A stretch of DNA of 64,000 nucleotides from Choanephora cucurbitarum (lineage: Eukaryota > Mucoromycota > Mucoromycetes > Mucorales > Choanephoraceae), in NCBI GenBank assembly GCA_025331435.1, contig JAIWNI010000041.1, positions 1 to 64,000 on the forward strand, read 5' to 3'. This document shows, piece after piece, positions 1 to 12,432 of this stretch. A program made the translations under genes and the position numbers. Within the stretch, counting starts at the first letter, position 1. Each line of letters opens with the position of its first letter. Under the pieces are notes generated by a model. It searched no databases, had not been told where the DNA came from, and worked only from the letters and a program-made list of their open reading frames with translations.

Positions 1-96
1 AGGTACTGGTGGTCTAAGCTTTGTTGCAAGTTATGTCTATGAGCGATGAGAGTGTTTGTGCGTTGCCAGTATACTTCTTGAGTGTATGAGCAATGT
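1..96 (-). mobile_element. LINE 5' end, element continues left of the window
   Basis: These bases match the 5' leader of the two full-length LINE copies (near 5676-5771 and 10517-10612). The match stops at 96, where a 14-bp tRNA-Lys sequence begins. Compared with the full-length copies it lacks about the first 80 bp of the leader, so it is slightly 5'-truncated. The body lies off the left edge. Confidence 0.8.
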
Positions 97-110
97 GCCT
101 AGCTAGCTCA
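97..110 (+). repeat. 14-bp target-site duplication (5' end of tRNA-Lys)
   Basis: The sequence gcctagctagctca is identical to the first 14 nt of the tRNA-Lys gene at 12357. It sits exactly between the 5' end of one LINE and the 3' end of the next. Confidence 0.88.
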
Positions 111-1009
111 GATTAAACATTATCTTTAATTTTTTCCTTAAACAATTATATGGGCAACTCTATGGAGCATAAGCCAAATTGTATGAACTAAACTAAGATC
201 AAAAAGAGTGGAATGAGGAAACGAAAAAACCCAGCAGAAAACAACGACAAAAGGGGGAAAAAAGAGGAAAGAGAAAAAAAGAAAGAGAAAGCAACAGAGT
301 ACCGAGACAATTTTAGAACCCAAGGGCAGCACCAACGAATGGGAACTTTGATACTCACTTACCACCGTGGTTGCGCAATGAGTAGACTAAAGAGGTCATT
401 TCGTCTAAGATGAGAGCGATGGAGGAAGCCACGATCCTTGGGGATCGGGTTCAGGAGCGATGGTAGCAAGAGGATGTACCAGAGAGTCTATTGCATGAAG
501 CAATTGGATAAGAGAGGACCAAAAAGGAGGAGGACCAGTGGAAGCCTTTACAGGCAGAGAGTTGAGGGCATGGTCGATCGGATGAACGCCAGCAGGAGGA
601 GAGGGGAGAGCAGAAAAGAGTTCAGAGTCAAGTGCACGACAAGACAAGAAGTGATCTCTTGAAATGAAGGCACCAGAGAGACAAGGGCATTCTTCACGAA
701 GGTTCGCAAAGCGACCAAGACGCCAACGAACAAGCCTACTGCGAGCAGTAGTTGTCATTGGGAGGTAGAGGATGGGATCCGGCTTATAAGTGCACGGACG
801 ACAGGCACGCAAGAGAACAGAGCGACCAAGAGAAGCTTGTTTTGCCATTTGGCGGTTGAATTGATCCTGCCAATATCGTCTAAAGTGAGCACGGAGCTCA
901 GCATCAGAGACAGGCGGTGGATCAGGGAGAGAGAGGTAGAGAGCATTCTGTTGAAGAAGCTTAGAGAGGCGAGGGTACCGTAGTTGATCACGTAAGAGCA
1001 CAAGCAAGC
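111..1009 (-). mobile_element. 5'-truncated LINE copy (oldest complete insertion visible)
   Basis: This is an 899-bp fragment carrying the 3' UTR and the end of ORF2. It is flanked on both sides by the 14-bp tRNA-Lys duplication (97-110 and 1010-1023). It is visibly more diverged from the full-length copies than they are from each other, both in the 3' UTR and in ORF2. Truncation at the 5' side is the normal outcome of incomplete target-primed reverse transcription. Confidence 0.88.
405..1009 (-). pseudogene. LINE ORF2 C-terminal fragment
   Basis: About 200 residues align with the C-terminus of ORF2 in the neighbouring copies, including the Cys/His cluster CPCLSGAFISRDHFLSC. The frame stays open rightwards through the 14-bp duplication to 1067, giving an ORF that begins in the 3' UTR of the next element. 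Those first residues are not part of the protein family. There is no endonuclease and no reverse transcriptase core. Confidence 0.85.
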
Positions 1010-1023
1010 GCCTAGCTAGCTCA
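1010..1023 (+). repeat. 14-bp target-site duplication (5' end of tRNA-Lys)
   Basis: Exact copy of tRNA-Lys nt 1-14, lying between the truncated copy on the left and the 3' end of the full-length copy on the right. Confidence 0.88.
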
Positions 1024-1304
1024 GGTGAAACATTATATTTTATTATATACAACAATTCTTTGGGCAACTCTATGGAGCATAAGCCGAATTGGATGAACTA
1101 AACTAAATAAAAGAGTGGGAAAAAGTACAAAAAACCCAGCAGAAAAACGAACAAAAGGGAAAAGAGGAAACAGAAGGACAGGAAGAGAGAGCAACAGAGT
1201 ACTGAGACAACTTTAGAGCCCAAAGGCAGCACCAACGGATGGGAACTTTGATAATCACTTACCACCGTGGTTGCGCAGTGAGCAGGCTAAAGAGGTCATT
1301 TTGT

Positions 1305-4300
1305 CTATGGAGAGATCGGAGGAGAAGGAGGAGGAGGAGGAGGAAGCCATGATCCATTTGGATCAGGTTCTGGAGCGATGGTAGCAAGAGGATGCACCAG
1401 AGAGTCTATTGCATGAAGCAATTGGAGAAGAGAGGACCAAAAAGGAGGAGGACCAGTGGAAGCCTTTACAGGCAGAGAGTTGAGGGCATGGTCGATCGGA
1501 TGAACGCCAGCCGGAGGAGAAGGGAGGTCGAAAAAGAGGGATGGATCAAGTGCACTACAAGACAAGAAATGATCTCTTGAAATGTAGGCACCGGAGAGGC
1601 AGGGACATTCTTCACGAAGATTCGCAAAGCGACCAAGACGCCAACGAACAAGCCTACTGCGAGCAGTAGTTGTCATTGGGAGGTAGAGGATTGGATCCGG
1701 CTTTGAAGTGCACGGACGACAGGCACGCAAGAGGACAGCACGGCCACGAGAAGCTTGAGTTGCCATTTGGCGGTTGAACTGATCCTGCCAATATCGCCTA
1801 AAGTGAGCACGAAGCTCAACATTAGAGACAGGCGGTGGATCAGGGAGAGAGAGGTAGAGAGCATTCTGTTGAAGAAGCTTAGTAAGGCGAGGGTACCGCA
1901 GTTGATCACGTAAGAGCACAAGCAAGCAGTCATCAGGGAGGTATTGTACACGAAGAACGTATCTTGTGACAAGGACATTGTACCTATGAATCATGGCAGG
2001 CAGGCAAGTGATGTGTTTTGCTACTTGAAACCAAGAGCCACCAATGAACATACGGACCAGCCGGTTTTGAAGGTCATCGAGCTGTTTCATGTCTGTTGAA
2101 GAGAGACGGGCAATAGCCAGGCCATACTCTATCTTGGGACGGATAAAGCAGGCATACAGTCGAGAGGACAGGAGGAGAGAGAAGCCGTTACGGTGGACAC
2201 CTACTGAGACCAGCAGGGCCATGGTCTTGACAGCCTTAGCTGCACGAAAAGAGACAAGATCTGGACCAGAAATGCCCTTTGAGCGAAAAGGTACACCGAG
2301 GTATACAAATTCGTCAACGAGCGGTAACGGTTCATCGTACAACGTCAATCGTGGGCCATCAGGTCGTGCGTTGAGGACTGCACATTTAGACGGACTCCAG
2401 CGATATCCGAGGGAGCGAGAATGCTCAGCGGCAATGTTCAGCATCCGTTGGACCTGACTACTAGAGCCAATGATCGCAACGTCATCCGCGAAGAGAAGGC
2501 AATTCAAAGGAATTGGCGAAGGAGGAGGAGAAGGAGAGGAAGGAGAAGAAGGCGAACCTGGTGGACATACCGAAGTAGTACCATCCGAGGCAGCAGCGCG
2601 GAGAGCAGAGGGAAGCGAGTTGATGTACAAAGAGTACAGATGCGGGGAGAGAACAGAGCCTTGTAGAACACCAGTGACAGGAGTAAAAGGCGCAGAGGAA
2701 TGATTAGCGATCAGCACCGAAATCTGAACGTCATCAAACAAGTTGATGAGCAATCCAAGAAGTGGGCGGGGTAGAGAGGAATCAGCCAGAGCATTCCAGA
2801 TGACACGTCGGTCAACAGTGTCATAAGCAGCCTTGATGTCAAGAAAAGCAACCACAGGACGGCGATGGTGGGTGAGCAGGTAGTCATGCATCAAGTCATG
2901 CAAGCAGAGGGCTTGATCCAGAGGGCTACGCTGCGGACGGAAACCACCTTGCGCAATGTCAAGTGGAGGCGAGTGTTCATAGAGACAGTCAGAGATGGCA
3001 AACTCAAAGAGCTTACGCATAACCGAAGTCAGAGAGATTGGCCGATAGTTTGCAGGATCAGAGGGATCGTTTTTCTTGTGTATCGGGAAGACATTGGCGA
3101 GACGCCAGAGAGAGGGGGTGTACGACCATTGATAACACAGAGAGAAGAAAAGAGAGAGTAGCGGGGCAAGGTCCGTTGCAACGGCCTTCAGCATTTCTGC
3201 TTTCAGGTGATCGCTACCCGGTGCCTTGCGTAGAGGTAACCGCTTGATGTGATCCATGATAGCATCTACAGAGAAAATGTCCAAATCATCAGGCAGAGCA
3301 AAAGGAAGCAAACTATCGTGAGGTGATGGAGCAGAAGGGCGAGCGTCAGGCGCAGGCAAAAGGGAACCATTGTAGACAGTGGCCAAGTGAGAGGCCATGG
3401 TATCCACTGATGCAGCAGGACCGTCAGGATGAGCATAGGTTGATGAGCAGTCACGACGCCTTTTTATCCTTGAAAGAGTGGCCGTAGCTTTAGAGAAATC
3501 TTTTTCAAGTTGGGCACAGAAATTCTTCCAAGAGAGACGTTTTGCCTTTGATACCAAACGACGGAACGAACGATGAGCATCAAGATGCAACGACCACCAG
3601 TACGCTTTGTCAACACCTAGGGCGTGACGCCACATACTATAACAGCGATCGCGTTCACGAGCAGCAGACTCGATTTCCGAAGTCCAGTATTTCTTCCACC
3701 ACTTACCAGACCGAGGTGCTCTCACACCAACCGATCCATCCAAGGAATCGTAGAAGCACTCATTAAGAGTAGCATTCAGACCATCAATGTCAGGGCGGCA
3801 TGTAGGAGGAGAAGCAACCAGAGCGGACAGCGCATCACCCAAGGGCGAGACACTAGTCCTAAACCTGGACCTAAACAGAGCTAGCGGTTCCGTGTCTTGC
3901 AAGCGAGACAGGTTCCAAAGCCGTCTAGGAGCCAAGGTTGGCGCCGAAGCACCAGCAGCCACAGACGCATAGTCGAAAGACAGAGTCAACAATCTATGGT
4001 CAGAGCCAAGAGACAAGTCAGATTCTACCACGATCTGAGCCGAACGCATATCCTTTGCAGGTATATTTGTTACGAACAGATCGATGATGCTACTCACTTC
4101 CCTTTCACGCCGAAACGTAGAAAAGGTAGCAACACCTGGAGAAAGAGACGAGTTGAGCACAGCCAACCCACATTGTTCAAGCCATGTTGCCATAGCAAGT
4201 CCACGGGGATTGGTAGCGGAATCACCGGTAAGAGCACCAAAACGAGCATTGAAGTCACCACAGATAATGGAGTCAGAGTGAAGGGGGATTTGTTGTAAAG

Positions 4301-4692
4301 CGGATAGCACCAGATCATTAGAGATACTGGGTGGAAAATAAACACAATGCACATTGACCTTATCAATTTTCAGTGAAAGAGTGTATGCATTGAGGGAGGG
4401 AAGTTGAGAGACAGAGTGTTGGCAATGAGGAGAGATGAGTGCCGAAACACCACCAGAATCCACGGTTGTTTGCGTTTATTAGCTTCTTGCCATAGAGATG
4501 GTACTGAGACCACTCAACTGGAAGAAAGCCAGATGTGAGCCAAGTTTCTGTCACAAAGAGGACATCGGTGTGGAGGACATGGGATAGGACATCGTGGATG
4601 GTTGAGGCCCGAAGGCCATTAGCATTCCAGATGCTTAGAGAGAAGGAGCGGAGAGGGGTGGGTATAGAGAAAGGATCTGTAAGAGGACTCAT
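1305..4692 (-). pseudogene. LINE copy A ORF2: APE endonuclease + reverse transcriptase, one frameshift
   Basis: ORF2 starts at the ATG at 4692 (overlapping the ORF1 stop). It gives the N-terminal endonuclease (SIWNANGLRAS, TETWL) and then shifts +1 near 4455-4463 into the 1052-residue frame ending at 1305. The second frame holds the rest of the endonuclease (ICGDFNARFG, LGSDHRLLTLSFD with the catalytic His), the RT fingers (NYRPISLTSVMRKLFE), the palm (AFLDIKAAYD), the FADD catalytic box (LLFADDVAI), the thumb, and a C-terminal CxC..H..C cluster. Copy B has the same shift at the same place. It is therefore either an inherited lesion or a programmed frameshift. Apart from that the RT region is intact. 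Confidence 0.88.
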
Positions 4693-5630
4693 TAAAGAGA
4701 CATTACAGAATCACTATCGTCAGAGCCGGTCTTTGAGAAAGCAAAGGACTTGGCACGGGGATCTTGAGCCTGTTGGCGAGAGTGAGCAGCGGCGACAGCA
4801 GAACGGAGATCGGTGTCATCGATCCATCCCCAATCCAAAAAGGAACGGGCAACAGAACCGACAACAACAGGACGAAGGAAAGAGAGAGTGTCAAGAGCAC
4901 GACCGTTAACCAGCTCATGCATTTGAGCGGCACGTTGGTCGACCGACAGAGAGGCAAACTTGGGATCAGCAAGGTTGGATGGATCCAAAGGATCGAAATC
5001 CTTCACAAGCTCAGCGCCAGCCTTCTGCATGACAGCAGTGAATTGCTCCACATACTGCACATGCATCAGGACACCGAGAACACCAGAAGCAGGAAAAGAA
5101 ATGTCAAGGACACGGCCGGTATCAACGCCAATGCGGCGAAGACGAGAACGAACCTCAGATCTATTGATCTTACGAGAGCGGCCAAGGTAAACATATTTAA
5201 AGCCTTGAGGACCTTTGGCCCCAGGGCTCATAAAAGCACGAGCAGCAGCAGCACGCTTTTTTGTAGAAGGTGCACGAGCCTTTTTGGCAGGTGCAGCAGC
5301 AGAGACAGGAGAGGAGAGAGCAGGTTTGGCAGCAGCAGCGGCCCAAGAAGAAGCAGAGGTACCATTTGTATCATCTGATACAGAGCGTACAGGATTAGCT
5401 ACCTGTGAGTTGACTAAATTGAGAAGTCTTTCATTCTCAGAGATTAGTTTTTTATTTTTTTCCTCAAGGGAAAAAATTTTTTCTTGAAGAGACTCGATAT
5501 GTTTGAAGAGCCCATCATGTTGTTGAACCTGTTGTTGCAACTGCAACACAAGTGTCTGAAGATGTTGCAAGTCAACGGGTTGATTGCGAACAAAAGAGGT
5601 GGGTGCAGTTTGTTGCATTGGTGTAGTCAT
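4692..5630 (-). CDS. LINE copy A ORF1 protein (312 aa)
   Basis: This is the probable nucleic-acid-binding ORF1p of the LINE. Residues about 20-75 form a Gln/Leu-rich coiled coil, expected to oligomerise. Residues about 90-135 are Ala/Ser/Lys-rich and basic. From about 140 a folded domain begins (GFKYVYLGRSRKINRSE) that resembles the RRM/CTD-type region of other fungal ORF1 proteins. No CCHC zinc knuckle is visible, which is unusual for the group. The stop codon overlaps the ORF2 start as TAATG, so ORF2 may be translated by termination-reinitiation. The protein is identical to that of copy B. The family assignment rests on position and composition rather than a diagnostic motif. Confidence 0.85.
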   Translation of the reverse strand: MTTPMQQTAPTSFVRNQPVDLQHLQTLVLQLQQQVQQHDGLFKHIESLQEKIFSLEEKNKKLISENERLLNLVNSQVANPVRSVSDDTNGTSASSWAAAAAKPALSSPVSAAAPAKKARAPSTKKRAAAARAFMSPGAKGPQGFKYVYLGRSRKINRSEVRSRLRRIGVDTGRVLDISFPASGVLGVLMHVQYVEQFTAVMQKAGAELVKDFDPLDPSNLADPKFASLSVDQRAAQMHELVNGRALDTLSFLRPVVVGSVARSFLDWGWIDDTDLRSAVAAAHSRQQAQDPRAKSFAFSKTGSDDSDSVMSL

Positions 5631-5850
5631 CTTGAAAACTAACTTTCAAAACGACTCGTATAAATGTGAAAATAGAGGTACTGGTGGTCTTAAGCTTTGT
5701 TGCAAGTTATGTCTATGAGCGATGAGAGTGTTTGTGCGTTGCTAGTATACTTCTTGAGTGTATGAGCAATGTAATTGGCTAGTTCTTGAGCTTCAAGTCA
5801 CGTATAGAGGTATACGAAGGACTAAAAGTATTCAAAAGCGAAAGAAAAGT

Positions 5851-5864
5851 GCCTAGCTAGCTCA
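5851..5864 (+). repeat. 14-bp target-site duplication (5' end of tRNA-Lys)
   Basis: Exact copy of tRNA-Lys nt 1-14, between the 5' end of copy A and the 3' end of copy B. Confidence 0.9.
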
Positions 5865-6145
5865 GGTGAAACATTATATTTTATTATATACAACAATTCT
5901 TTGGGCAACTCTATGGAGCATAAGCCGAATTGGATGAGCTAAACTAAATAAAAGAGTGGGAAAAAGTACAAAAAACCCAGCAGAAAAACGAACAAAAGGG
6001 AAAAGAGGAAACAGAAGGACAGGAAGAGAGAGCAACAGAGTACTGAGACAACTTTAGAGCCCAAAGGCAGCACCAACGGATGGGAACTTTGATAATCACT
6101 TACCACCGTGGTTGCGCAGTGAGCAGGCTAAAGAGGTCATTTTGT

Positions 6146-9100
6146 CTATGGAGAGATCGGAGGAGAAGGAGGAGGAGGAGGAGGAAGCCATGATCCATTT
6201 GGATCAGGTTCTGGAGCGATGGTAGCAAGAGGATGCACCAGAGAGTCTATTGCATGAAGCAATTGGAGAAGAGAGGACCAAAAAGGAGGAGGACCAGTGG
6301 AAGCCTTTACAGGCAGAGAGTTGAGGGCATGGTCGATCGGATGAACGCCAGCCGGAGGAGAAGGGAGGTCGAAAAAGAGGGATGGATCAAGTGCACTACA
6401 AGACAAGAAATGATCTCTTGAAATGTAGGCACCGGAGAGGCAGGGACATTCTTCACGAAGATTCGCAAAGCGACCAAGACGCCAACGAACAAGCCTACTG
6501 CGAGCAGTAGTTGTCATTGGGAGGTAGAGGATTGGATCCGGCTTTGAAGTGCACGGACGACAGGCACGCAAGAGGACAGCACGGCCACGAGAAGCTTGAG
6601 TTGCCATTTGGCGGTTGAACTGATCCTGCCAATATCGTCCTAAAGTGAGCACGAAGCTCAACATTAGAGACAGGCGGTGGATCAGGGAGAGAGAGGTAGA
6701 GAGCATTCTGTTGAAGAAGCTTAGTAAGGCGAGGGTACCGCAGTTGATCACGTAAGAGCACAAGCAAGCAGTCATCAGGGAGGTATTGTACACGAAGAAC
6801 GTATCTTGTGACAAGGACATTGTACCTATGAATCATAGCAGGCAGGCAAGTGATGTGTTTTGCTACTTGAAACCAAGAGCCACCAATGAACATACGGACC
6901 AGCCGGTTTTGAAGGTCATCGAGCTGTTTCATGTCTGTTGAAGAGAGACGGGCAATAGCCAGGCCATACTCTATCTTGGGACGGATAAAGCAGGCATACA
7001 GTCGAGAGGACAGGAGGAGAGAGAAGCCGTTACGGTGGACACCTACTGAGACCAGCAGGGCCATGGTCTTGACAGCCTTAGCTGCACGAAAAGAGACAAG
7101 ATCTGGACCAGAAATGCCCTTTGAGCGAAAAGGTACACCGAGGTATACAAATTCGTCAACGAGCGGTAACGGTTCATCGTACAACGTCAATCGTGGGCCA
7201 TCAGGTCGTGCGTTGAGGACTGCACATTTAGACGGACTCCAGCGATATCCGAGGGAGCGAGAATGCTCAGCGGCAATGTTCAGCATCCGTTGGACCTGAC
7301 TACTAGAGCCAATGATCGCAACGTCATCCGCGAAGAGAAGGCAATTCAAAGGAATTGGCGAAGGAGGAGGAGAAGGAGAGGAAGGAGAAGAAGGCGAACC
7401 TGGTGGACATACCGAAGTAGTACCATCCGAGGCAGCAGCGCGGAGAGCAGAGGGAAGCGAGTTGATGTACAAAGAGTACAGATGCGGGGAGAGAACAGAG
7501 CCTTGTAGAACACCAGTGACAGGAGTAAAAGGCGCAGAGGAATGATTAGCGATCAGCACCGAAATCTGAACGTCATCAAACAAGTTGATGAGCAATCCAA
7601 GAAGTGGGCGGGGTAGAGAGGAATCAGCCAGAGCATTCCAGATGACACGTCGGTCAACAGTGTCATAAGCAGCCTTGATGTCAAGAAAAGCAACCACAGG
7701 ACGGCGATGGTGGGTGAGCAGGTAGTCATGCATCAAGTCATGCAAGCAGAGGGCTTGATCCAGAGGGCTACGCTGCGGACGGAAACCACCTTGCGCAATG
7801 TCAAGTGGAGGCGAGTGTTCATAGAGACAGTCAGAGATGGCAAACTCAAAGAGCTTACGCATAACCGAAGTCAGAGAGATTGGCCGATAGTTTGCAGGAT
7901 CAGAGGGATCGTTTTTCTTGTGTATCGGGAAGACATTGGCGAGACGCCAGAGAGAGGGGGTGTACGACCATTGATAACACAGAGAGAAGAAAAGAGAGAG
8001 TAGCGGGGCAAGGTCCGTTGCAACGGCCTTCAGCATTTCTGCTTTCAGGTGATCGCTACCCGGTGCCTTGCGTAGAGGTAACCGCTTGATGTGATCCATG
8101 ATAGCATCTACAGAGAAAATGTCCAAATCATCAGGCAGAGCAAAAGGAAGCAAACTATCGTGAGGTGATGGAGCAGAAGGGCGAGCGTCAGGCGCAGGCA
8201 AAAGGGAACCATTGTAGACAGTGGCCAAGTGAGAGGCCATGGTATCCACTGATGCAGCAGGACCGTCAGGATGAGCATAGGTTGATGAGCAGTCACGACG
8301 CCTTTTTATCCTTGAAAGAGTGGCCGTAGCTTTAGAGAAATCTTTTTCAAGTTGGGCACAGAAATTCTTCCAAGAGAGACGTTTTGCCTTTGATACCAAA
8401 CGACGGAACGAACGATGAGCATCAAGATGCAACGACCACCAGTACGCTTTGTCAACACCTAGGGCGTGACGCCACATACTATAACAGCGATCGCGTTCAC
8501 GAGCAGCAGACTCGATTTCCGAAGTCCAGTATTTCTTCCACCACTTACCAGACCGAGGTGCTCTCACACCAACCGATCCATCCAAGGAATCGTAGAAGCA
8601 CTCATTAAGAGTAGCATTCAGACCATCAATGTCAGGGCGGCATGTAGGAGGAGAAGCAACCAGAGCGGACAGCGCATCACCCAAGGGCGAGACACTAGTC
8701 CTAAACCTGGACCTAAACAGAGCTAGCGGTTCCGTGTCTTGCAAGCGAGACAGGTTCCAAAGCCGTCTAGGAGCCAAGGTTGGCGCCGAAGCACCAGCAG
8801 CCACAGACGCATAGTCGAAAGACAGAGTCAACAATCTATGGTCAGAGCCAAGAGACAAGTCAGATTCTACCACGATCTGAGCCGAACGCATATCCTTTGC
8901 AGGTATATTTGTCACGAACAGATCGATGATGCTACTCACTTCCCTTTCACGCCGAAACGTAGAAAAGGTAGCAACACCTGGAGAAAGAGACGAGTTGAGC
9001 ACAGCCAACCCACATTGTTCAAGCCATGTTGCCATAGCAAGTCCACGGGGATTGGTAGCGGAATCACCGGTAAGAGCACCAAAACGAGCATTGAAGTCAC

Positions 9101-9534
9101 CACAGATAATGGAGTCAGAGTGAAGGGGGATTTGTTGTAAAGCGGATAACACCAGATCATTAGAGATACTGGGTGGAAAATAAACACAATGCACATTGAC
9201 CTTATCAATTTTCAGTGAAAGAGTGTATGCATTGAGAGAGGGAAGTTGAGAGACAGAGTGTTGGCAATGAGGAGAGATGAGTGCCGAAACACCACCAGAA
9301 TCCACGGTTGTTTGCGTTTATTAGCTTCTTGCCATAGAGATGGTACTGAGACCACTCAACTGGAAGAAAGCCAGATGTGAGCCAAGTTTCTGTCACAAAG
9401 AGGACATCGGTGTGGAGGACATGGGATAAGACATCGTGGATGGTTGAGGCCCGAAGGCCATTAGCATTCCAGATGCTTAGAGAGAAGGAGCGGAGAGGGG
9501 TGGGTATAGAGAAAGGATCTGTAAGAGGACTCAT
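6146..9534 (-). pseudogene. LINE copy B ORF2, two frameshifts
   Basis: The order is as in copy A: endonuclease N-terminus (9534 to about 9205), then the +1 shift near 9300, then endonuclease and reverse transcriptase with GDFNA, SDHR and FADD motifs. A second lesion is private to this copy: one extra base near 6638 (atcgtcct against atcgcct in copies A and C). It throws the last 160 or so residues, including the Cys/His cluster, into another frame, where they continue to 6146. This copy is therefore unlikely to encode a complete ORF2p. Confidence 0.88.
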
Positions 9535-10472
9535 TAAAGAGACATTACAGAATCACTATCGTCAGAGCCGGTCTTTGAGAAAGCAAAGGACTTGGCACGG
9601 GGATCTTGAGCTTGTTGGCGAGAGTGAGCAGCGGCGACAGCAGAACGGAGATCGGTGTCATCGATCCATCCCCAATCCAAAAAGGAACGGGCAACAGAAC
9701 CGACAACAACAGGACGAAGGAAAGAGAGAGTGTCAAGAGCACGACCGTTAACCAGCTCATGCATTTGAGCGGCACGTTGGTCGACCGACAGAGAGGCAAA
9801 CTTGGGATCAGCAAGGTTGGATGGATCCAAAGGATCGAAATCCTTCACAAGCTCAGCGCCAGCCTTCTGCATGACAGCAGTGAATTGCTCCACATACTGC
9901 ACATGCATCAGGACACCGAGAACACCAGAAGCAGGAAAAGAAATGTCAAGGACACGGCCGGTATCAACGCCAATGCGGCGAAGACGAGAACGAACCTCAG
10001 ATCTATTGATCTTACGAGAGCGGCCAAGGTAAACATATTTAAAGCCTTGAGGACCTTTGGCCCCAGGGCTCATAAAAGCACGAGCAGCAGCAGCACGCTT
10101 TTTTGTAGAAGGTGCACGAGCCTTTTTGGCAGGTGCAGCAGCAGAGACAGGAGAGGAGAGAGCAGGTTTGGCAGCAGCAGCGGCCCAAGAAGAAGCAGAG
10201 GTACCATTTGTATCATCTGATACAGAGCGTACAGGATTAGCTACCTGTGAGTTGACTAAATTGAGAAGTCTTTCATTCTCAGAGATTAGTTTTTTATTTT
10301 TTTCCTCAAGGGAAAAAATTTTTTCTTGAAGAGACTCGATATGTTTGAAGAGCCCATCATGTTGTTGAACCTGTTGTTGCAACTGCAACACAAGTGTCTG
10401 AAGATGTTGCAAGTCAACGGGTTGATTGCGAACAAAAGAGGTGGGTGCAGTTTGTTGCATTGGTGTAGTCAT
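9534..10472 (-). CDS. LINE copy B ORF1 protein (312 aa)
   Basis: This is the same protein as copy A ORF1, with no amino-acid difference that I can see: an N-terminal coiled coil, an Ala/Lys-rich linker, and a C-terminal nucleic-acid-binding-like domain beginning around residue 140. It also ends in TAATG, overlapping the ORF2 start at 9534. Identity at protein level between the copies is what recent mobility or recent duplication predicts. Confidence 0.85.
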   Translation of the reverse strand: MTTPMQQTAPTSFVRNQPVDLQHLQTLVLQLQQQVQQHDGLFKHIESLQEKIFSLEEKNKKLISENERLLNLVNSQVANPVRSVSDDTNGTSASSWAAAAAKPALSSPVSAAAPAKKARAPSTKKRAAAARAFMSPGAKGPQGFKYVYLGRSRKINRSEVRSRLRRIGVDTGRVLDISFPASGVLGVLMHVQYVEQFTAVMQKAGAELVKDFDPLDPSNLADPKFASLSVDQRAAQMHELVNGRALDTLSFLRPVVVGSVARSFLDWGWIDDTDLRSAVAAAHSRQQAQDPRAKSFAFSKTGSDDSDSVMSL

Positions 10473-10693
10473 CTTGAAAACTAACTTTCAAAACGACTCG
10501 TATAAATGTGAAAATAGAGGTACTGGTGGTCTAAGCTTTGTTGCAAGTTATGTCTATGAGCGATGAGAGTGTTTGTGCGTTGCTAGTATACTTCTTGAGT
10601 GTATGAGCAATGTAATTGGCTAGTTCTTGAGCTTCAAGTCACGTGATAGAGGTATACGAAGGACTAAAAGTATTCAAAAAGCGAAAGAAAAGT

Positions 10694-10707
10694 GCCTAGC
10701 TAGCTCA
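10694..10707 (+). repeat. 14-bp target-site duplication (5' end of tRNA-Lys)
   Basis: Exact copy of tRNA-Lys nt 1-14, between the 5' end of copy B and the 3' end of copy C. Its partner is the start of the tRNA gene itself (12357-12370). Confidence 0.92.
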
Positions 10708-12356
10708 GGTGAAACATTATATTTTATTATATACAACAATTCTTTGGGCAACTCTATGGAGCATAAGCCGAATTGGATGAACTAAACTAAATAAAAGAGT
10801 GGGAAAAAGTACAAAAAACCCAGCAGAAAAACGAACAAAAGGGAAAAGAGGAAACAGAAGGACAGGAAGAGAGAGCAACAGAGTACTGAGACAACTTTAG
10901 AGCCCAAAGGCAGCACCAACGGATGGGAACTTTGATAATCACTTACCACCGTGGTTGCGCAGTGAGCAGGCTAAAGAGGTCATTTTGTCTATGGAGAGAT
11001 CGGAGGAGAAGGAGGAGGAGGAGGAGGAGGAGGAAGCCATGATCCATTTGGATCAGGTTCTGGAGCGATGGTAGCAAGAGGATGCACCAGAGAGTCTATT
11101 GCATGAAGCAATTGGAGAAGAGAGGACCAAAAAGGAGGAGGACCAGTGGAAGCCTTTACAGGCAGAGAGTTGAGGGCATGGTCGATCGGATGGACGCCAG
11201 CCGGAGGAGAAGGGAGGTCGAAAAAGAGGGATGGATCAAGTGCACTACAAGACAAGAAATGATCTCTTGAAATGTAGGCACCGGAGAGGCAGGGACATTC
11301 TTCACGAAGATTCGCAAAGCGACCAAGACGCCAACGAACAAGCCTACTGCGAGCAGTAGTTGTCATTGGGAGGTAGAGGATTGGATCCGGCTTTGAAGTG
11401 CACGGACGACAGGCACGCAAGAGGACAGCACGGCCACGAGAAGCTTGAGTTGCCATTTGGCGGTTGAACTGATCCTGCCAATATCGCCTAAAGTGAGCAC
11501 GAAGCTCAACATTAGAGACAGGCGGTGGATCAGGGAGAGAGAGGTAGAGAGCATTCTGTTGAAGAAGCTTAGTAAGGCGAGGGTACCGCAGTTGATCACG
11601 TAAGAGCACAAGCAAGCAGTCATCAGGGAGGTATTGTGCACGTAGAGCGTATCTAGTGACAAGGACATTGTACCTATGAATCATGGCAGGCAGGCAAGTG
11701 ATGTGTTTTGCTACTTGAAACCAAGAGCCACCAATGAACATACAGACCAGCCGGTTTTGAAGGTCATCGAGCTGTTTCATGTCTGTTGAAGAGAGACGGG
11801 CAATAGCCAACCCATACTCTATCTTGGGACGGATAAAGCAGGTATACAGTCGAGAGGACAAGAGGAGAGAGAAGCCGTTACGGTGGACACCTACTGAGAC
11901 CAGCAGGGCCATGGTCTTGACAGCCTTAGCTGCACGAAAAGAGACAAGATCTGGACCAGAAATGCCCTTTGAGCGAAAGGGTACACCGAGGTATACAAAT
12001 TCGTCAACGAGCGGTAACGGTTCATCGTACAACGTCAATCGTGGGCCATCAGGTCGTGCGTTGAGGACTGCACATTTAGACGGACTCCAGCGATATCCGA
12101 GGGAGCGAGAATGCTCAGCGGCAATGTTCAGCATCCGTTGGACCTGACTACTAGAGCCAATGATCGCAACGTCATCCGCGAAGAGAAGGCAATTCAAAGG
12201 AATTGGCGAAGGAGGAGGAGAAGGAGAGGAAGGAGAAGAAGGCGAACCTGGTGGACATACCAAAGTAGTACCATCCGAGGCAGCAGCGCGGAGAGCAGAG
12301 GGAAGCGAGTTGATGTACAGAGAGTACAGATGCGGGGAGAGAACAGAGCCTTGTAG
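10708..12356 (-). mobile_element. 5'-truncated LINE copy C, abutting tRNA-Lys
   Basis: This 1649-bp fragment contains the 3' UTR and the second half of ORF2. The 5' truncation falls at the ORF2 codons for LQGSVLSPHLY, and the next base is nt 1 of the tRNA-Lys gene. The left side has the 14-bp duplication. Being next to the intact tRNA, it should be the latest insertion in the array. Confidence 0.92.
10989..12356 (-). pseudogene. LINE copy C ORF2 fragment (RT C-terminal half)
   Basis: The open frame runs from the truncation point (12356) through LQGSVLSPHLYSLYINSLP, the FADD box, the RT thumb and the Cys/His C-terminus, to a stop at 10989. It lacks the endonuclease and most of the RT fingers and palm. 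A (GGA)n expansion in the gene makes the Pro-rich tail (near 11005-11035) longer than in copies A and B. It has no start codon of its own and is not expected to be functional. Confidence 0.88.
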
Positions 12357-12429
12357 GCCTAGCTAGCTCAATCGGTAGAGCGTGAGACTCTTAATCTCAA
12401 GGTTGTGGGTTCGACCCCCACGTTGGGCT
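12357..12429 (+). tRNA. tRNA-Lys (anticodon CTT)
   Basis: A complete cloverleaf can be drawn. The acceptor GCCTAGC pairs with GTTGGGC (two G-T pairs), the D stem is GCTC/GAGC, the anticodon stem is TGAGA/TCTCA with loop CTCTTAA (anticodon CTT), the variable loop is AGGTT, and the T stem GTGGG/CCCAC carries loop TTCGACC. The discriminator base is T. There is no intron. The internal A box (TAGCTCAATCGG) and B box (GGTTCGACCCC) are intact. LINE copy C lies immediately 5', so the native upstream flank of this gene has been displaced leftwards by the array. Confidence 0.96.
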
Positions 12430-12432
12430 TTC

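Follow-up and report, generated by a model that had tools for sequence, protein, structure and literature searches.

Sequence evidence for a retrotransposon of Choanephora cucurbitarum that targets a single base within tRNA genes of several kinds and leaves them rebuilt

The left end of contig JAIWNI010000041.1 of the mucoralean fungus Choanephora cucurbitarum (assembly GCA_025331435.1) raises the question of how several copies of a long interspersed nuclear element (LINE) can lie head-to-tail inside a transfer RNA (tRNA) gene that is nevertheless intact. The stretch analysed, referred to below as the window, comprises positions 1 to 64,000 of the forward strand of this contig; other contigs are cited by C numbers. 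The answer proposed here, in which we have high confidence, is that the LINE inserts at one base in several kinds of tRNA genes, each gene being rebuilt by a duplication of 14 base pairs (bp). The sequence GCCTAGCTAGCTCA, which at 12357 forms nucleotides (nt) 1–14 of an intact tRNA-Lys(CTT) gene, occurs as an exact match at 97, 1010, 5851, 10694 and 12357, on the plus strand every time; in shuffled sequences, with up to two mismatches allowed, it occurred 0.23 times on average and five occurrences were never reached. The original prediction, made from the letters of the window, was that of a nested array of five LINE segments in the same orientation, bounded by tRNA nt 1–14. The nesting, the boundaries and the common orientation stand, and the count needs amending: four LINE segments lie between the GCCTAGCTAGCTCA copies, all on the minus strand with the 3' end leftmost, and a fifth copy shows just its 5' end at 1–96. 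The latter is the same sequence as the LINE 5' untranslated region (UTR) from 5675 on and matches C294:1-109 at 94%. The parts of the array are as follows, ORF standing for open reading frame.

1–96, minus strand: end of the 5' UTR of the outermost LINE copy, cut by the contig start, with about 75 bases missing to the full 5' end
97–110, plus strand: tRNA-Lys nt 1–14, target-site duplication (GCCTAGCTAGCTCA match)
111–1009, minus strand: 5'-truncated LINE copy (Lys1) of a diverged subfamily, 899 bp (copy comparison)
1010–1023, plus strand: tRNA-Lys nt 1–14, target-site duplication (GCCTAGCTAGCTCA match)
1024–5850, minus strand: full-length LINE copy, 4827 bp (copy comparison)
1308–4475, minus strand: ORF2 open stretch, with part of an apurinic-type endonuclease (Exo_endo_phos_2) and a reverse transcriptase, N-terminus out of frame (ORF and Pfam)
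4692–5645, minus strand: ORF1, a 317-amino-acid stop-to-stop frame with no Pfam family over the cut-off
5851–5864, plus strand: tRNA-Lys nt 1–14, target-site duplication (GCCTAGCTAGCTCA match)
5865–10693, minus strand: full-length LINE copy, 4829 bp, ORF2 broken at two places, 0.17% diverged from the copy at 1024–5850
10640–10645, no strand assigned: CACGTG within the 5' UTR of the LINE, at −54 relative to the tRNA nt 1 that follows
10694–10707, plus strand: tRNA-Lys nt 1–14, target-site duplication (GCCTAGCTAGCTCA match)
10708–12356, minus strand: innermost LINE copy, 5'-truncated, 1649 bp (copy comparison)
12357–12429, plus strand: intact tRNA-Lys(CTT) gene, restored through the latest duplication (ARAGORN gives 12356–12430), with a T-run that starts at base 4 downstream

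The element is a non-long-terminal-repeat retrotransposon (LINE) of the apurinic/apyrimidinic endonuclease (APE) type, about 4.8 kb long, with ORF1 and ORF2; the earlier assignment of an APE-type LINE to a fungal host was correct. As to the host, the stearoyl-CoA desaturase gene of the window shows 81% identity to Blakeslea trispora and 75% to Gilbertella persicaria, which places it among mucoralean fungi close to these two. More specifically, ORF2 matches PF14529 and PF00078 over the cut-off, i.e. it contains APE-type endonuclease and reverse transcriptase domains, and PF03372 is over the cut-off in two of the four relatives scanned. The copies display the hallmarks of LINEs: a fixed 3' end, variable 5' truncation and a target-site duplication. 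Both full-length copies of the window (1024–10693) share an interrupted ORF2 frame whose N-terminus is out of frame; open ORF2 frames of 1126–1136 amino acids at C347, C235, C303 and C90 point to intact copies outside the window.

The assembly (33.4 Mb, 357 contigs) was searched with the 3' 477 bases of the LINE, and 23 places matched, a count that is a lower bound. Three of them are internal fragments (C246 and two at C57), and the other 20 retain the 3' end. The element base at the junction is identical in all 20, and in 17 the element abuts nt 1–14 of a tRNA gene or tRNA stub, distributed as follows.

Lys-CTT: 4 copies, window array
Ile-AAT: 3 copies, C292, C40 and C347
Tyr-GTA: 2 copies, C90 and C303
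Ala-AGC: 4 copies, two at C19, C175 and C113
Lys-TTT: 1 copy, C251
GCTTCCTTGGCTCA stub: 3 copies, C235, with the tRNA body off the contig and the tRNA kind unassigned

For C347, C251, C175 (Ala side) and the second C113 copy, the tRNA was named from nt 1–14 alone. The remaining three of the 20 copies are off-target (C113:249388, C5 and C147). The same kind of junction is thus present on ten contigs besides that of the window, and the LINE is target-specific, with the style of life of R1 and Tx1 elements: most of its copies lie at one base of a repeated target. The prediction that the cut falls behind nt 14, within the A box, is borne out by these 17 copies; the refuting outcome named with it, random flanks and variable duplications, did not materialize, the duplication being of 14 bp in 14 of the 15 copies readable on both sides. 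In contrast, the specificity for tRNA-Lys that it had assumed proved too narrow, Ile, Tyr, Ala, both Lys and one unassigned tRNA gene or stub being hit at the same base.

Fifteen of the 20 copies are readable on both sides; four end at contig ends (C347, C235c, C113:359373 and C147) and the C251 copy is cut 5' by another element. At least 14 identical bases flank 14 of these 15 copies, as expected from the 14-bp target-site duplications inferred earlier. Three of the 14 duplications are uninformative on length, with element bases beyond on both sides; in the 11 informative cases the length is exactly 14 in ten and 15 in one (C5). Two of the three off-target insertions, C113 and C5, are readable on both sides, and both, which are among the 14, are duplicated too. 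Therefore, the enzyme cuts with a 14-bp stagger; at tRNA genes this reaches from the nick site behind nt 14 back to nt 1 of the mature tRNA, which explains why a whole tRNA is restored.

Rebuilt Ile, Tyr, Lys and Ala genes are indeed found on the 5' side of the element. A tRNA-Tyr gene at C9 represents an empty site; it is preceded by a leader similar to the one displaced to the left side of the C90 copy. Of tRNA-Ile(AAT) the assembly yielded three genes, each occupied by the LINE; they are identical to each other over 74 of 74 positions, their downstream flanks agree at just 26–31 of 74 positions, and a T-run lies directly downstream of each. The exact A-box patterns also retrieved one Lys-CTT and one Ala-AGC gene, both occupied, and additional stubs of Ile and Ala genes (C347, C113) continue past the contig ends; with such patterns variants would be missed, and the assembly is possibly incomplete. 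Because Ile-AAT is required to read two Ile codons, the rebuilt tRNA genes very probably work. Altogether, position, duplication and regeneration are established at the level of sequence.

This arrangement can be accounted for by the following steps: (i) the endonuclease would recognize the A-box core TRGCTCA and nick the sense strand of the tRNA gene after nt 14; (ii) the freed 3' end, i.e. the sense strand at nt 14, would prime reverse transcription from the fixed RNA 3' end, without an A tail; (iii) a second cut, in the opposite strand, would fall 14 bp further upstream and coincide exactly with mature nt 1; (iv) repair would duplicate nt 1–14, leaving on the right side a whole tRNA gene that could be targeted again; (v) repeated hits would build a head-to-tail array with the newest copy adjoining the tRNA. 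The sense strand ending at nt 14 is taken as the primer because of the insertion arrangement combined with target-primed reverse transcription; the strand order and direct recognition by the endonuclease are what we infer.

A full-length insertion would also swap the natural upstream region of the tRNA for the LINE 5' UTR, with CACGTG at the spacing found in the host. We read the upstream flanks of 41 tRNA genes free of the tRNA LINE, namely 40 genes of a 52-gene list and the Tyr gene at C9; the remaining 12 of the list are five LINE-occupied genes and seven whose flanks were unread. CACGTG occurs within 140 bases upstream in 25 of the 41 flanks, at −51 to −65 in 22 of the 25. When similar flanks are joined, it is present in 20 of 32 groups, or in 19 of 31 without a group that resembles the end of a long terminal repeat (LTR), for 0.17 expected; bases 13001–64000 of the window (51 kb) contain two. 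Nine LINE 5' ends that are complete or nearly so were read at junctions with a tRNA or stub; CACGTG is present at −54 to −56 in seven of them, and a tenth 5' end (C251), whose last bases are interrupted, has it as well. The LINE has two 5' UTR types, 56% identical over the aligned last 140 bases, which have in common ATTGGCT, TCACGTGA and AAAAAGCGAAAGAAA. Hence the proposal, to which we give nearly an even chance, that the LINE 5' end is a replica of the upstream control region of host tRNA genes (ATTGGCT, TCACGTGA and a leader rich in A, spaced as in the host genes), that a full-length insertion keeps the gene running, and that a second, probably LTR-type element with the same motif and spacing makes this a case of convergent mimicry of the target-gene promoter. 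With lower confidence than for the insertion itself, we infer that the CACGTG of the LINE 5' UTR may keep the tRNA transcribed.

The second element came to light upstream of tRNA-Arg(ACG), where the flank is a repeat with 28 matches. Since many of these matches come in pairs or rows 5.8–6.4 kb apart (C124, C268, C39, C211 and C326), the repeat is probably an LTR retrotransposon family. At least five of the 28 matches are no more than 11 bases away from a listed tRNA gene or from the C235 stub, gap lengths being rough, as the query ended 7 bases before the tRNA. At C235:274893-275011, the distance from the end of the repeat to the tRNA stub downstream, which the LINE has already hit, is 10 bp. 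Four similar tRNA flanks (Asn, His, Arg and Pro), three of which are among the 28 matches, have a similarity that ends 5–11 bases upstream of the tRNA and CACGTG at −53 to −56. Finally, at C251:1-510 an inverted copy of what, judged by eye, resembles this repeat sets in within the 5' end of the LINE, with about 6 bases left to the expected start of the rebuilt tRNA, which itself lies off the contig; if the LTR-like element homes to RNA polymerase III (Pol III) genes, it would have recognized a rebuilt one there.

It is also a real possibility, somewhat short of an even chance, that CACGTG is an internal promoter element of the LINE itself and that its match to the tRNA spacing is coincidental. 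LINEs usually have internal 5' promoters, and CACGTG may also drive LINE transcription. Consistent with this alternative, 5'-truncated copies are devoid of CACGTG at that spot, including those adjoining the intact Lys and Ala genes. The motif is also missing in two of the nine fuller 5' ends (window 5851, a decayed form, and C303, an altered end). On both counts, CACGTG is not strictly needed. However, coincidence has to accommodate a position, −54 to −56, that falls within the range of 22 of the 25 host flanks against the scarcity of the motif in the background, and the probable LTR element, which has it at −53 to −56 upstream of tRNA genes; CACGTG at one spacing in two elements favours mimicry of the host tRNA upstream region. 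In the accessible portions of the open-access literature searched, we found no mention of CACGTG preceding tRNA genes in fungi.

Two further features of the flanks may be mentioned. CCGGAC occurs in 11 of the 32 flank groups (L129–L168, L116), often where CACGTG is absent, and nowhere in the window background; it is possibly a second upstream module of tRNA genes. Besides, upstream flanks are similar to identical (73–100%) between different tRNA genes (L147/L158/L165, L140/L166 and L136/L160), which suggests more element ends abutting tRNA genes.

What directs the LINE to these genes? All hit tRNAs have TRGCTCA at nt 8–14. Among the 14 intact tRNA genes found with this core, seven are occupied (three Ile, two Tyr, one Lys-CTT and one Ala), the unoccupied ones being Tyr at C9, Lys-TTT at C112, three Phe, Cys and Thr-TGT, as against none of the 41 other genes of the 52-gene list (p = 1.7e-5); within the list alone, the figures are 5 of 11 and 0 of 41 (p = 1.8e-4). 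Seven of these 41 genes were unread, so that their A boxes were unseen, and the LINE 3' search gave no match on their contigs; core-bearing tRNA genes outside the search patterns may exist. Two A-box pattern matches, C268:102548 and C291:29363, were dropped after ARAGORN gave no tRNA. Of the 7 core positions, the off-target sites share 5, 4 and 6, for a random mean of 2.0 (p = 8e-5).

Alternatively, a Pol III factor could lead the LINE to tRNA genes, the exact base reflecting a weak preference of the endonuclease. Such tethering has been reported for other tRNA-associated retrotransposons, with TFIIIB proposed for TRE5-A in the available text of PMC5911963. We nevertheless consider it unlikely here: every hit tRNA has TRGCTCA and the 41 other tRNA genes carry no copy, the off-target sites are core-like, and the two of them readable on both sides keep the stagger. 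Moreover, insertion takes place at one base inside the gene, at a position where TFIIIC would sit. Because the occupied genes have the core and the off-target sites resemble it, direct recognition of the sequence is favoured over tethering.

That unequal crossing-over built the whole array from a single insertion, the refutation that the original prediction had set itself, is very improbable, as this would explain the two full-length Lys copies (0.17% substitution difference) and the two Ala copies at C19 (identical, truncation point included) and neither the other array members, which are set apart by their truncation, by their subfamily (Lys1 lies about 10% away from the other three Lys copies) or by a divergence of 5.2% (C235a versus b), nor the junctions on ten other contigs. 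Each of the two pairs may be a single insertion duplicated; counting them once leaves 15 of the 17 tRNA copies. C235b and c are 0.9% apart, and among the array members outside the two pairs the 5' ends differ. Judged by subfamily and truncation points, at least four events are distinguishable in the window array, in keeping with the repeated hits that had been foreseen. Two outer copies besides (window 1–96, and C19 beyond 87064) have the 5' end side alone on the contig.

Returning to insertion at one base followed by rebuilding of the gene, several points weigh against it, along with the missing CACGTG motifs described above: (i) support comes from a single assembly; (ii) the far side is unseen for the four contig-end copies and C251; (iii) the copy at C175:10689-15487 has Ala nt 1–14 at its 3' end and a tRNA-Ile gene at its 5' end, a mixture that would stem from ectopic recombination between copies or from misassembly; (iv) downstream of the Ala gene at C19, the first 45 bases contain no T-run; and (v) tRNA-Phe (three genes), Cys (one) and Thr-TGT (one) have TAGCTCA and no copy, so that more than the core may matter.

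In the proposed scheme, the landing site of the LINE is the Pol III internal promoter itself, and survival of the LINE there would depend on the 14-bp stagger from the nick to mature nt 1, by which the gene is rebuilt. All three Ile(AAT) genes found having passed through insertion, they offer a natural test of tRNA gene function with a retrotransposon as upstream region. If the upstream mimicry is true, it shows how a parasite inserts safely into low-copy essential genes; an A-box-specific endonuclease combined with a gene-restoring duplication would be a candidate for safe targeted insertion.

By their sequences, ORF2-related proteins are spread across the Mucorales, known here from proteins alone and not from insertion sites. 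In the protein search, in which only the 8000 candidates with most words in common were scored, the best relatives show 66% identity across nearly the whole query (best 120 of 374 matches); the named ones in the best 120 of 374 are Mucoromycota proteins, and the matches listed include Mucor, Rhizopus, Cokeromyces, Umbelopsis and Dichotomocladium proteins as well as unnamed ones. Among them, INT47_006506 and INT47_006507 of Mucor saturninus have neighbouring names, at most a hint at tandem copies. Scanning of viral contigs with the ORF2 alignment gave no relative, and the prokaryote genome scan a single 28% reverse transcriptase match. The junction pattern (16 letters) was found in 48 stretches across the collection, about the chance expectation by estimate. 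In the genome itself, C146 carries a diverged LINE relic (ORF2 pieces at 51–69%, 3' part gone) about 550 bp from a tRNA-Thr(TGT) gene and not at its nt 14, which is neutral for target specificity, and nine further contigs carry distant relatives. The three tRNA-Val(AAC) genes read (C295, C357 and C112) each have a distant LINE relative (41–47%) that lies 7–9 kb upstream and is oriented like the tRNA LINE family.

The APE elements R1 and Tx1 are among the closest known systems, with an apurinic-type endonuclease and reverse transcriptase, a fixed base in a multicopy RNA gene and a uniform duplication, which in R1 is 14 bp. The tRNA LINE differs in that its target is an A box common to several isoacceptors and that a complete gene is rebuilt; the likeness meant here is one of way of life. 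The TRE5, TRE3, NLTR-A and NLTR-B elements of dictyostelids are likewise non-LTR retrotransposons at tRNA genes of a compact genome. According to the available text of PMC5006619 and PMC5911963, the insertions of these elements lie outside the gene: some 50 bp upstream, 2–6 bp upstream for NLTR-A and downstream for TRE3; the tRNA LINE has no such distance window and inserts after nt 14 inside the gene. Insertion inside tRNA genes, often in the A box, is described for Dada DNA transposons (tI, tY and others), the duplication of Perkinsus Dada-tI and -tY being TAGCTC, nt 8–13 (PMC3706591 and PMC8869645, as far as available). Dada elements are DDE DNA transposons with 6–7 bp duplications and a tRNA of its own for each family, whereas the tRNA LINE has a reverse transcriptase, an endonuclease and a 14-bp duplication. 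Zebrafish Dewa is a non-LTR retrotransposon tied to tRNA genes (accessible part of PMC3706591). Within the Mucorales, Ty3-like elements of Rhizopus oryzae co-localize with tRNA genes but are of the LTR type, and the accessible text of PMC2699053 does not describe the LINEs there as tRNA-associated; Grem-LINE1 of Mucor is a LINE family with two ORFs but occupies pericentric regions, and the main text of PMC7377519, as available, contains no word beginning with "tRNA", this comparison being by description. The accessible parts of the open-access literature searched describe no LINE inside tRNA genes, though PMC4640811 and PMC8869645 name tRNA genes among LINE targets, citing e.g. Kojima and Fujiwara 2004, which tempers this negative result. 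In the accessible text of that literature, the tRNA-associated LINEs described insert outside the gene, the present one inside it.

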